Below, piece by piece: positions 29,760 to 32,856 of a DNA stretch of 64,000 nt; positions within the stretch are counted from its first letter, which is position 1; each line of letters opens with the position of its first letter. Source of the stretch: Lachnospiraceae bacterium (lineage in GTDB: Bacteria; Bacillota; Clostridia; Lachnospirales; Lachnospiraceae). The notes beneath the pieces were generated by a model. It searched no databases. It was given only the letters and a program-made list of their open reading frames with translations, and was not told the DNA's origin. The stretch is from NCBI GenBank assembly GCA_014239155.1, contig JAAZZQ010000040.1, positions 1 through 64,000 on the forward strand, in the 5' to 3' direction. The position numbers and the translations under genes were made by a program.

Positions 29760-30046
29760 TTTAGTGCTTTTCTATCCCCCAGCCCTTATCCGAAACATCA
29801 ACAATAATCTACGCCAGTTATTTTCCTACAACTTCTTAATTAATACAAAACTTAAAGTTTGTTAGCGCAAACGTTATTATTCACGCCCACCAGTTTTTAG
29901 CAAAATTTTAAGTCGTGCTGACATAAACAGTTCTGCACGCAAAATACTAGAAAACAAACATTTGGGCACATACTTTTTACTACTTTTGCAGAGTCATAAA
30001 AAATAATAATACAAATAACAACATTTTTTCTGGTCAATTCTGTCCC
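29760..30046. other. Gene-free AT-rich stretch before the peptide gene
   Basis: I see no ORF, RNA gene or convincing repeat here. It contains a short inverted repeat around AACGTT (GTTAGCGCAAACGTTATTAT region) of no clear meaning. Confidence 0.3.
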
Positions 30047-30075
30047 TTGAAAACAACATTAAATTTGGTTATATT
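30047..30075 (+). promoter_or_regulatory. Promoter of the small peptide gene
   Basis: TTGAAA (30047-30052) and TATATT (30070-30075) are spaced exactly 17 bp. The leader is about 75 nt and contains the palindrome at 30102-30124. Confidence 0.65.
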
Positions 30076-30101
30076 TAATTATAGTAATAGTCTAGGCTAC
30101 T

Positions 30102-30124
30102 GACTACGCATTTTATACGTAGTC
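30102..30124 (+). promoter_or_regulatory. Palindrome in the leader of the peptide gene
   Basis: GACTACG and CGTAGTC form a perfect 7-bp inverted repeat with a 9-bp centre, about 20 nt downstream of the predicted transcription start. It could be an operator of the neighbouring regulator or an RNA hairpin; the sequence alone does not decide. Confidence 0.45.
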
Positions 30125-30157
30125 TTATCTTGTATGTAAAAAATGGAGGTTTTTCAA

Positions 30158-30325
30158 ATGAAACGTTTTAATTTTGGAAAGTTGTTGTTAACACTGGCTT
30201 TTGTGATTTTAATTCAAAATGGTACTGTCATAGTGTATAATGCGGCGGGGACAGAAGATTATACGGACAAAGGAAACATTTCAACCTTAAGTGATAAGCC
30301 TTATTTAGAAGACGACTATTCATAA
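30158..30325 (+). CDS. Small exported peptide precursor, candidate signalling peptide
   Basis: The product is 55 residues. The ATG at 30158 is chosen because GGAGG lies 8 nt upstream. A basic start (MKRFNFGK) leads into a hydrophobic stretch (LLLTLAFVILIQNGTVIVYN) with a possible signal-peptidase site at NAA-G near residue 30. The remaining 25 residues, acidic and Asp/Tyr/Ser-rich (TEDYTDKGNISTLSDKPYLE then DDYS), would be released or trimmed. The shape matches the precursors of Phr/PapR/NprX-type peptides sensed by TPR regulators. The gene converges on such a regulator 118 nt away. No lantibiotic-type enzymes are nearby. The role is inferred from architecture and neighbour. Confidence 0.65.
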   Translation: MKRFNFGKLLLTLAFVILIQNGTVIVYNAAGTEDYTDKGNISTLSDKPYLEDDYS

Positions 30326-30380
30326 AAGATACTGTCAAATGTCTTCTAAAGTAATATGAAATATATCAAGCTATTACTTT
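30304..30380. terminator. Overlapping hairpins between peptide gene and regulator
   Basis: TTTAGAAGAC (30304-30313) and GTCTTCTAAA (30341-30350) are perfectly complementary and enclose the peptide stop codon. AAAGTAATA (30348-30356) and TATTACTTT (30372-30380) form a second stem. The two share bases 30348-30350 and compete. The second works as a weak terminator in either direction. Confidence 0.5.
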
Positions 30381-30442
30381 CCTGCATTGATTCAGTAACT
30401 TTTTTCTACAAAACGAGACAAATCCGGGCTGACATACATAAA

Positions 30443-32305
30443 TCACTTTTTAATTATTTTGGACTTATAGAATGATTCATCAATTCCCTGCTTACAAAAA
30501 TGGCTGAGTAAAATGCATTGTTGTAATTTCTCAGTCATTTTTTCCTTCTTATATAACTGATTTCCGTTTTGTTCACTCTGATTCTCATCCCACAAAATAT
30601 TATACAAACTATCAGCAATAGTCCATGCTCTTTTACACATTAATGACTCTTTAAGTAACCTTTTGCCTAAATCTATAGAAGTATGATACTCTCCCATATT
30701 TCCCAACTCGTTCATTACACCTACCATCACAAATTCATATATAACAATACAATCAGACAATGCATTTCTTTTTGCAAACCAATCAAAAAACTGTAACAAA
30801 AAATCAATACTTTTCCGCTTTTCTGTCTCATTAGCTACCTGTATTCTTTTCCGAATACAAAACATCTCCATCTGCGTTAGATACACCTCCTCCAAATCAT
30901 ACAAATTTTTAACCTTTAATGTACACCGAAGTGCCTCTTTCTCCCTTGATGCAAATTCCTCTTTTGTAATCTTCCCCTCAACCCAATCCAAGGAAGCTTC
31001 CGTTTCCAGAAAATATTGTTTATTTTCTGGTATGTCCATAGAGACGCGCTCCCGCATTTGTTCTAATAGCGCTCTTGCCTTGTCTTGCTCACGATTGTTG
31101 CGGCTCGCTGCAATTTCCTCTCTTAGTTTCAGCACTTCCCTGTCATTTGCAACGAGCCGTGCACGCTGAAACTCCTTGGAAATTCCCAGCTTTCTAAGGA
31201 GTTTTCCCAAAACCTCCTGCTGCATGTTGGCTTCCTTTTTTTCTGTTCTGCGCAGCGTTCTGACAGAACAAATTCCATCACACAGTTTCTTCTGTGTCAG
31301 TCCATACATATTTCTGCGTATGCGTAGAACATCTCCCACATAGAACATCCATCTCTGCCGGTACAGATAAGTAGAATCCTGCATATATGTCGGCACATGA
31401 TACTCTGTACAGAGATTTTTTAACAATTCTATAAAATTTTTACACTCTTGCATGCCTGATTCCAATGTATCGTCTTTATTCTCAGACAGTATGCTTATTC
31501 CTTCTAACAGTTTCAGTTTGGTTTCCAAAAGCTCCAACAAATAATATAATCGTCCAGTGTCACGCAACATCTCCACTGCGCGGTCACAAATTTGTAGATA
31601 TCCAATCAATGCAGGCTCTGTTATGTGTGTATTGAAGCCAGTATAAACTTCACGCAGATAATAATACACAATCTTTGGATACACTTTAACTTTGCACAGC
31701 GCATCATAGGCAGCTTGCTCTACAAAAAGCATCAGCGCCTTGCACTTCTTTTCAAAATCCGTATCTTTGTGAGAATACTCATATTCCAAAATCACATTGA
31801 TTTCTTGAATAGAAAGTACTCGCTTTTCATAAGATATGTGTGTTATATCAGGAATCGTACATTTAGCTGCCGTTTCATAACATGCTCCAATCACACTAGA
31901 GTCTGCCCTCTGTTGCTTTAATACCTCTGCCTTCATCATCAGACAAAACTGTTGTTGGACTCCATCTTTTGTCAGTTCTTGGGACTCATAATCCCAAATA
32001 AGTTTCTGTGCTTTTTCAGTCTCCTGAGATTCTATTGCACACAAAATACAGCGCTGCTGTTCCCATACCGCATGGTCTTCAATATTGAGCATATTTTCAT
32101 ACAAATCACTGGCAATCCCAAGTCTTCCCAGCAGACAATCCCGCATATTTTTTGAGATAGGGCGCTGTCCTTTCTCAATCCTTGCAAGGTTGCTGACTGT
32201 CATCAAACCTTTTGACAGTTGTTCCAATAATACATTTTCCTCTTTTCTAACAGGCTTTAAAAAACGGGGAAAATCCTGCCCCGCTTCCAAACGTTTTCTT
32301 ATCAT
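30443..32305 (-). CDS. Double HTH-TPR regulator, candidate peptide receptor (RRNPP-like)
   Basis: The product is 620 residues with two halves of similar plan. An XRE-type HTH is at about residues 22-60 (LLEQLSKGLMTVSNLARIEK). It is followed by about 240 residues of alpha-helical repeat resembling TPRs, a second XRE-type HTH at about 324-375 (LRIRRNMYGLTQKKLC, then SVRTLRRTEKKEAN), and a second helical-repeat region to the end. RRNPP receptors (Rap, Rgg, NprR, PlcR, PrgX) combine one N-terminal HTH with TPRs that bind a short secreted peptide; two HTH modules in one chain is unusual. The ATG at 32305 has GAGG about 13 nt upstream. A TGCAGT/ACTGCA inverted repeat (32328-32347) lies in its leader. 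The converging peptide gene is the likely partner. Confidence 0.75.
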   Translation of the reverse strand: MIRKRLEAGQDFPRFLKPVRKEENVLLEQLSKGLMTVSNLARIEKGQRPISKNMRDCLLGRLGIASDLYENMLNIEDHAVWEQQRCILCAIESQETEKAQKLIWDYESQELTKDGVQQQFCLMMKAEVLKQQRADSSVIGACYETAAKCTIPDITHISYEKRVLSIQEINVILEYEYSHKDTDFEKKCKALMLFVEQAAYDALCKVKVYPKIVYYYLREVYTGFNTHITEPALIGYLQICDRAVEMLRDTGRLYYLLELLETKLKLLEGISILSENKDDTLESGMQECKNFIELLKNLCTEYHVPTYMQDSTYLYRQRWMFYVGDVLRIRRNMYGLTQKKLCDGICSVRTLRRTEKKEANMQQEVLGKLLRKLGISKEFQRARLVANDREVLKLREEIAASRNNREQDKARALLEQMRERVSMDIPENKQYFLETEASLDWVEGKITKEEFASREKEALRCTLKVKNLYDLEEVYLTQMEMFCIRKRIQVANETEKRKSIDFLLQFFDWFAKRNALSDCIVIYEFVMVGVMNELGNMGEYHTSIDLGKRLLKESLMCKRAWTIADSLYNILWDENQSEQNGNQLYKKEKMTEKLQQCILLSHFCKQGIDESFYKSKIIKK

Positions 32306-32613: not shown

Positions 32614-32856
32614 ATGAAAGCACAAGAAGCAGTTGTATTGCGCATTAAAAGTCTATGCAAAGAAAGAAATCTAAAGATATCGCAGTTGGCCTATTCTGCG
32701 GGCATGCCGGAATCGACTCTAAAAAACGTTATGAATGGTCACAGCAAAAACACCGGAATTGTGACTATCAAAATAATATGTGATGGGCTTGATATTTCGT
32801 TGGATGATTTCTTTCAATGCAGCCTGTTTCATAAGCTGGAACAGGAAATTAGCTGA
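32614..32856 (+). CDS. Small XRE-family HTH regulator
   Basis: The product is 80 residues, essentially a single helix-turn-helix domain: VVLRIKSLCKERNLKISQLA, then GMPESTLKNVMNG and a C-terminal helix with DISLDDFF. GAGGTGG lies 7-9 nt before the ATG. It binds DNA as a phage-repressor-like dimer; its targets are unknown. It is divergent from the 620-residue regulator (308-nt shared region that may hold operators for either) and converges on a small unknown gene 24 nt downstream. Confidence 0.85.
   Translation: MKAQEAVVLRIKSLCKERNLKISQLAYSAGMPESTLKNVMNGHSKNTGIVTIKIICDGLDISLDDFFQCSLFHKLEQEIS

Follow-up and report, generated by a model that had tools for sequence, protein, structure and literature searches.

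The window analysed here, a 64,000-nucleotide stretch of a Lachnospiraceae genome, holds a short gene for a likely exported peptide that converges on a gene for a 620-residue protein with two DNA-binding modules. The question raised by this locus is whether two peptide receptors have been joined in one chain and, if so, which genes such a chain would control. The preliminary description of this DNA had proposed, on the grounds of architecture, a candidate quorum-sensing pair with an unusual double HTH-TPR receptor. We consider it probable, at roughly 0.7, that the two genes form a peptide quorum-sensing pair in which the receptor is a covalent RRNPP pseudo-dimer, activating its own peptide gene and defence-rich operons through the 15-bp site CAATTCTGTCCCTTG.

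Architecture and relatives of the receptor

The receptor gene comprises the following features.

30443..32305, minus strand: 620-aa double RRNPP receptor, from the open reading frame, profiles and an AlphaFold model
32123..32272, minus strand: first XRE-type HTH, residues about 12-61, from AlphaFold helices and a profile of the N-terminal half that matches the Rgg and PrgX HTH
31403..32083, minus strand: first TPR superhelix, residues about 75-301, from the AlphaFold model and structural matches
31190..31339, minus strand: second XRE-type HTH, residues about 323-372, from Pfam HTH_3 at 327-378 and the AlphaFold model
30449..31141, minus strand: second TPR superhelix, residues about 389-619

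That the protein carries two XRE-type HTH modules, each followed by helical repeats, had been proposed earlier and agrees with the AlphaFold2 model of the whole receptor (mean pLDDT 91.0, pTM 0.90), in which HTHs at residues 12-61 and 323-372 precede repeats at 75-301 and 389-619 that form two TPR superhelices; the first half modelled alone scored a pLDDT of 90.6 and a pTM of 0.89. A fold lacking TPRs or with degenerate HTHs, named beforehand as evidence that would speak against the idea, is not what the model shows, HTH and TPR being predicted in both halves. Searched with the 620-aa protein alone, Pfam recognised HTH_3 clearly only in the second module (best stretch 327-378), found the first as a weaker second stretch at a lenient threshold and gave no TPR match; the first HTH module is clear with the family profile, through matches to Rgg and PrgX. 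In the profile search against RRNPP receptors that the preliminary description had called for, a profile of 35 relatives matched PlcR along the entire second half (E 2e-18) and, on the first HTH, matched Rgg and PrgX, and each half alone aligned with PlcR nearly end to end, the N-terminal half over 3-285 (E 3.3e-8) and the C-terminal half over 16-306 (E 3.1e-15). The two halves also match one another, with an hhalign probability of 99.9. Structure searches returned PlcR with PapR and DNA as the top PDB match each time, with ComR, NprR, Rgg2 and PrgX also high; unrelated TPR proteins come near in Z, and the sequence profiles therefore carry most weight. The Pfam model RNPP_C (PF18768) matched 3 of 35 family members, the window protein not among them. 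The RRNPP assignment itself is upheld, both halves consisting of HTH plus TPR and matching known RRNPP receptors in sequence and structure.

An XRE-type HTH followed by a TPR superhelix occurs here twice in one chain, and the total of 620 aa falls outside both the 250-500 aa that RRNPP_detector keeps and the 285-473 aa of validated RRNPP receptors (both as given in the available part of PMC10075063). The halves, of 312 and 309 residues, would each satisfy the 250-500 aa rule alone, and the protein is therefore filed as a variant made of two RRNPP units, not as an ordinary member. By its profiles and predicted fold, the 620-aa protein is two complete RRNPP receptors placed head to tail in one chain.

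The same genome has four further receptor copies, P0002 (50% identical), P0003 (33%), P0004 (26%) and one in two ORFs, besides a short receptor fragment (L007, 174 aa). Receptor matches at E 1e-10 or better occur in 27 of 397 genomes of the family (own genome included); across the order, 58 of 392 genomes match at 1e-20 in a profile search, the forms found being double, half-size or adjacent half pairs; and in a phylum-wide draw 7 of 398 genomes match, own genome included, the other six having only open frames of 210-333 aa. Named relatives among the matches listed come from at least 14 loci, all Lachnospiraceae. The collection holds 75 distinct double receptors (540 aa or more), identical C-termini having been merged and related ones counted apart. 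Among eight split loci examined, five (L025, L033, L065, L107 and L108) have a separate gene for each half, the two genes overlapping or lying 20 nt from each other and the second having its own RBS; no RBS was found before the second gene in L110, L067 and L126. The halves can therefore exist as separate proteins, which makes a covalent heterodimer the natural reading of the fused form.

Several individual loci deserve mention in their own right. L126 (6562-8358, minus strand; G000:C8, about 50.6-52.4 kb) is the fifth receptor copy of the own genome, with ORFs of 269 and 319 aa; no signal can be recognised in the small ORF at its 3' end, whose tail resembles, by eye, the peptide of L030, the sister of the L126 receptor in the tree, and the locus is either a decaying pair or a split pair. 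In L036 (3501-5365), from Lachnospiraceae bacterium IMSAGC_011, the receptor is interrupted in the deposited sequence, with peptide ORF and site present, and L091 (1952-6148) has tandem double receptors, a convergent peptide gene being found only after the second. An 80-aa Cro/C1-type HTH gene (32614-32856, plus strand) adjoins the window's receptor, as it does the L210 orthologue; next to other receptors of the clade, in L200, L206 and L234, a different XRE gene, of 120-122 aa, takes its place.

The convergent peptide gene and its pairing with the receptor

On the opposite strand, the peptide gene and its upstream region show the following.

30047..30075, plus strand: peptide-gene promoter, with -35 TTGAAA at 30047-30052, a 17-nt spacer and -10 TATATT at 30070-30075; 10 of 12 consensus matches
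30102..30124, plus strand: short leader palindrome GACTACG-n9-CGTAGTC
30145-30149, plus strand: RBS GGAGG of the peptide gene
30158-30325, plus strand: 55-aa exported-peptide precursor, a likely pheromone precursor, from RBS, basic N-terminus, hydrophobic stretch and aligned relatives
30278..30322, plus strand: C-terminal 15 residues of the precursor, ISTLSDKPYLEDDYS, a likely source of the mature signal

A 55-residue exported precursor with its own promoter, convergent on the 620-residue protein, had been described before, and the coordinates, the RBS and the TTGAAA-17-TATATT promoter all agree with that account. A promoter scan of the region gave 13 promoter-like matches against 9.3 in shuffles, and the scan by itself is therefore no proof of the peptide promoter. 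The leader palindrome, also part of the earlier account, is present; it is short and its second arm is lost in the nearest relative (L036), for which reasons its function is doubtful and it is given no weight. The basic N-terminus and hydrophobic stretch of the precursor make it an export candidate under a home-made rule on hydropathy, used in place of a trained predictor of signal peptides. An SD-containing core near the precursor end is kept in most of 15 relatives, the preceding linker varying in sequence and length, and the precursors of the window's clade likewise keep the basic-hydrophobic start and the SD-containing core on either side of a variable linker. On sequence grounds, this pattern is as expected of a secreted signal.

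The pairing of the two genes recurs well beyond the window. Of the 75 double receptors, 74 have 300 nt or more of sequence downstream, and under a fixed rule (gap -60 to +300) 50 of these 74 have a convergent Sec-like small ORF at the receptor 3' end; control genes gave 2 of 238 and shuffles 12 of 1,480. A stricter rule gave 47/74 against 0/238 control genes, and in 43/74 the small ORF is within 20 nt of the receptor stop. Placement is equally specific, the strict rule finding the ORF in the convergent 3' position at 39 of 61 receptors and in each of three other placements at 0 of 61. In seven of the 24 misses a plausible precursor narrowly escapes the rule (L011, L019, L035, L045, L062, L122 and, weakly, L111), and about 17 of the 74 have no peptide recognisable by script or by eye. 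The expectation that homologues would always neighbour a small exported peptide thus holds for most and not for all, and the pairing is common, not universal. The window's own pair has the adjacent short-precursor gene by which RRNPP systems are recognised, of 55 aa and with 117 nt between the two convergent stops.

Stop codons of receptor and small ORF often overlap by 4-10 nt in relatives, as might be expected if the ORF encoded a small protein that is structural or acts on membranes, and if antisense transcripts were the means by which the convergent overlap acted. We regard this as very improbable: each half of the neighbouring protein has the fold of a peptide receptor, the tail of the small protein keeps its core while the linker varies, and the window's own pair has no such overlap.

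The candidate operator and its promoter geometry

Upstream of the peptide gene lies the sequence through which the receptor may act.

30035..30049, plus strand: candidate receptor operator CAATTCTGTCCCTTG, which overlaps the peptide-promoter -35; the genome has 7 exact copies

This 15-mer is common to the peptide promoters of the window's clade. Its seven exact copies in the 4.57-Mb own genome compare with about 0.01 expected by simple base counting, and the pattern read backwards has 0 occurrences there; one copy is at the window's peptide, two are inverted at the peptide of P0002 and four are elsewhere. Nine further receptor-bearing genomes, picked by receptor and not by site, with close receptors confirmed in all nine, hold 6, 1, 4, 6, 6, 4, 8, 5 and 8 exact copies, which brings the total to 55 copies in 10 of 10 receptor-bearing genomes; the genome with a single exact site (G1107) has it at its own peptide. 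In the other genomes of the family the site occurs in 3 of 396, once each, about the chance level, and all three occurrences are without a -10. Six more close receptors, seen only by coordinates, gave three exact peptide-side copies and three with one mismatch.

The position of the site relative to the promoter is also fixed. A -10 of the form TA...T lies exactly at +35 from the site at 29 of 32 distinct sites, the next best of the offsets tested (25-49) reaching at most 6/32, and from this fixed distance it follows that the site overlaps the -35 and is centred near -41. The -35 hexamers at these sites are fixed only as TTG, and a TG ahead of the -10 is frequent (19 and 20 of 32 sites). Because the site overlaps the -35, the receptor might instead repress there and be relieved by the peptide, so that high density would derepress the targets; this is the mode of Rgg3 or PrgX. 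We think this unlikely, as a site centred near -41 over the -35, together with TTG-only -35s and a frequent TG before the -10, is the usual class II activator arrangement, and it is this geometry that points to activation as the probable sign of regulation. Paralogues that share a site could nevertheless act oppositely, as two Rgg regulators do according to the available part of PMC3150281.

Within the 15-mer, symmetry is limited to the outer CAA/TTG and the inside is asymmetric, which fits two different HTH heads. The preliminary description had suggested that two heads in one chain could act as a covalent dimer or bridge two operators. The first idea gains support from the five two-gene loci and from an operator with symmetric outer triplets and an asymmetric inside. 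As for the second, an additional inverted copy (at least 12 of 15 bases) lies 29-35 bp upstream at 14 of 32 sites, 10 of these at peptide loci, and the window's own site has no second inverted copy (best 9/15); a receptor bridging two operators is possible.

Which protein reads the site is a separate matter. P0002 has the same site at its peptide promoter, with two exact inverted copies at its locus where the window's pair has only one, and the small HTH gene at 32614-32856 adjoins both the window's receptor and the L210 orthologue. The RRNPP pair could thus be real while some other regulator, P0002 or a factor unrelated to it, is the main user of the dispersed CAATTCTGTCCCTTG sites and has the window's pair as one more target. 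This we hold to be doubtful: an exact copy was present at 12 of 12 P0001/P0002-type loci read, several of them in one genome in some cases (in L199 the peptide falls within masked sequence); no small HTH gene of this kind was seen at the P0002-type loci L002, L199 and L201; and receptors of another clade have a different site together with different residues in both HTHs. Binding by the window's receptor, P0001, together with P0002, is the tentative assignment we prefer for the site.

That other clade consists of P0003-type receptors, which have their own, related but different inverted site pair upstream of the peptide. The half-site GGACAACTCTGGGCATTG is exact in L124, L042 and L044 and changed in L043, L045 and L049; in its exact form it shares the skeleton GGnCAAnTCTGnnCnTTG with the first site type, and in L045 and L049, inside the P0003 clade, the CAA of this skeleton is broken. 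In the own genome, exact GGACAACTCTGGGCATTG is found only at the locus of P0003, between the peptide gene and a divergent gene of 423 aa that is radical-SAM by eye.

L124 9599-9885 (G000:C8): candidate P0003 inverted operator pair, between the peptide gene and the divergent radical-SAM-like gene

From this placement, a peptide-natural-product operon is probably under the control of P0003. Columns that are constant inside each group of receptors and differ between the groups number 6 of 51 for the first HTH, 9 of 52 for the second HTH and 40 of 601 overall, a distribution that would fit receptors reading their sites with both heads; the groups compared are also two lineages, so that the HTH differences need not stem from the site. 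Only 10 of 71 peptide promoters show the general pattern of CAA-n9-TTG plus -10, and two clades account for 8 of the 10; other clades thus use other sites or none recognisable.

A candidate defence regulon

Of the 55 exact sites, 20 lie by position at receptor-peptide loci and 35 elsewhere; three at contig ends, one same-contig repeat and one near-identical orthologue set aside, 30 distinct readable dispersed sites are left. These lead into defence genes (10), radical-SAM operons (3) and other or unknown genes (17), as judged from a partial scan of the first genes behind the sites, and a shared regulatory site thus stands before defence operons at 10 of the 30, a gene or operon being counted as defence when it matches a defence model or carries an effector domain. 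In the own genome, the site precedes a type III CRISPR operon (Cas10, Csm3, Csm4 and Cas6 models), III-A by its best Cas10a and Csm matches, as well as a calcineurin-STAND gene (PDC-S60), and a SIR2_2 gene starts about 1.1 kb past its site. In relatives it is found before a TIR gene (L200), before RdrB behind a match-less 924-aa gene (L203, RADAR-like), before LmuA-LmuB (L203, Lamassu), before LmuA at a contig end (L236), before a PNP_UDP_1 effector (L232), before a TIR/ThsB-like gene on the outward arm of a receptor locus (L234) and before FRG and TIR together with an RdrA-like gene (L240). The radical-SAM operons are those of own C10, L198 and L204, and the 17 other or unknown genes include a lysozyme, an AMP-ligase, membrane proteins and a DUF4062-AAA protein, along with an Hsp70 and a metallo-beta-lactamase-fold protein that are both weak PADLOC matches. 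At 1e-3, PADLOC matched 18 of 29 proteins from site-linked stretches, hand-picked with a leaning to likely defence and one of them beside rather than behind a site, against 0 of 10 unrelated own genes, which were also hand-picked.

Some of the stretches behind sites hold proteins of other kinds. A membrane-like protein pair (about 480 and 715 aa) lies more than 1 kb past the site in L195, L196 and L233, from two genomes; the L195 pair has no Pfam match, and in one genome the unit appears close to each end of a single contig, which may be an assembly artefact. Operons behind the site encode a 2,083-aa protein without match in L202 (1933-8184) and, in L205 (2690-9701), a protein of 2,337 aa or more that has one cold-shock and one AAA-type stretch, and these very large proteins are candidates for undescribed defence genes.

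Computation establishes the gene pair, the doubled RRNPP fold, the repeated convergent arrangement, the site with its constant promoter spacing and its tie to genomes that have this receptor type, and the genes that follow it. From these findings we infer a circuit in which the 55-aa precursor would be exported by Sec, its C-terminal part (around SDKPYLEDDYS) released, and the released peptide re-imported by an oligopeptide permease; three ORFs of the own genome match PF00496 above cut-off (oligopeptide-type solute-binding), which permits, and does not show, such import. The peptide would then bind a TPR groove of the receptor, and one receptor chain would dock its two HTHs, which are not identical, on one 15-18-bp site, (GGn)CAATTCTGTCCCTTG, near -41 and over the -35 of a sigma-A-type promoter, activating transcription. 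One target would be the peptide gene itself, giving positive feedback, and the others would be dispersed operons with a large share of anti-phage defence, represented in the own genome by the type III (Csm-type) CRISPR-Cas operon, the calcineurin-STAND gene, the SIR2 gene and the radical-SAM cluster; a phage phenotype may go with such control. As P0002 shares the site, two peptides may feed one regulon, and as the site recurs before phage-defence genes, cells may switch on immunity on sensing their own kind.

RRNPP receptors with their peptide genes, quorum control of CRISPR and the control of radical-SAM operons by Rgg are already known (available parts of PMC10075063, PMC9765709, PMC12462963, PMC5179492 and PMC13361665). 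The present pair resembles PlcR-PapR in the HTH plus TPR fold along the whole length of each half and in the exported peptide gene beside the receptor, and differs from it in having two complete units per chain, a convergent 3' placement and an asymmetric site. With the Rgg/SHP systems of streptococci, some of which drive radical-SAM peptide operons according to the available part of PMC13361665, it shares the HTH-TPR receptor, the adjacent short peptide gene and radical-SAM operons among the likely targets; the receptors there, however, have a single HTH, and the same part of that source describes no dispersed defence regulon. SHP peptides are exported by PptAB, as stated in the available part of PMC10075063. 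Cell-density signals also act on CRISPR-Cas in other bacteria (available parts of PMC5179492 and PMC12462963), for example in S. aureus, where agr represses type III-A CRISPR-Cas indirectly through SarA and ArcR (PMC12462963, same part); the signals there are others, whereas here one site stands before several kinds of defence, beside an intracellular peptide receptor. A literature search found no report of a double RRNPP receptor or of an RRNPP defence regulon.

Taken jointly, it seems to us a somewhat better than even bet that Lachnospirales-type gut bacteria use undescribed fused-RRNPP quorum sensors, in which one polypeptide reads an asymmetric operator, and that one clade of these is a master switch of immunity that senses kin through a private peptide. 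If this is true, kin density would turn on CRISPR, RADAR-like, Lamassu, TIR, SIR2, STAND and peptide-natural-product operons, and defence genes would join by gaining one 15-bp promoter element, so that the arsenal could change while the switch stays. RRNPP surveys that filter at 250-500 aa (available part of PMC10075063) would pass over double receptors, and may thus have overlooked a class of cell-cell signalling in a common gut family. With the natural split forms and the asymmetric site one can ask how two heads per chain read one operator, and the 15-bp site could be used as a tag for new defence systems, several of the genes behind it having matched none of the families searched. The regulon would also be a testable case for when bacteria deploy costly or suicidal phage defences, namely amid kin.
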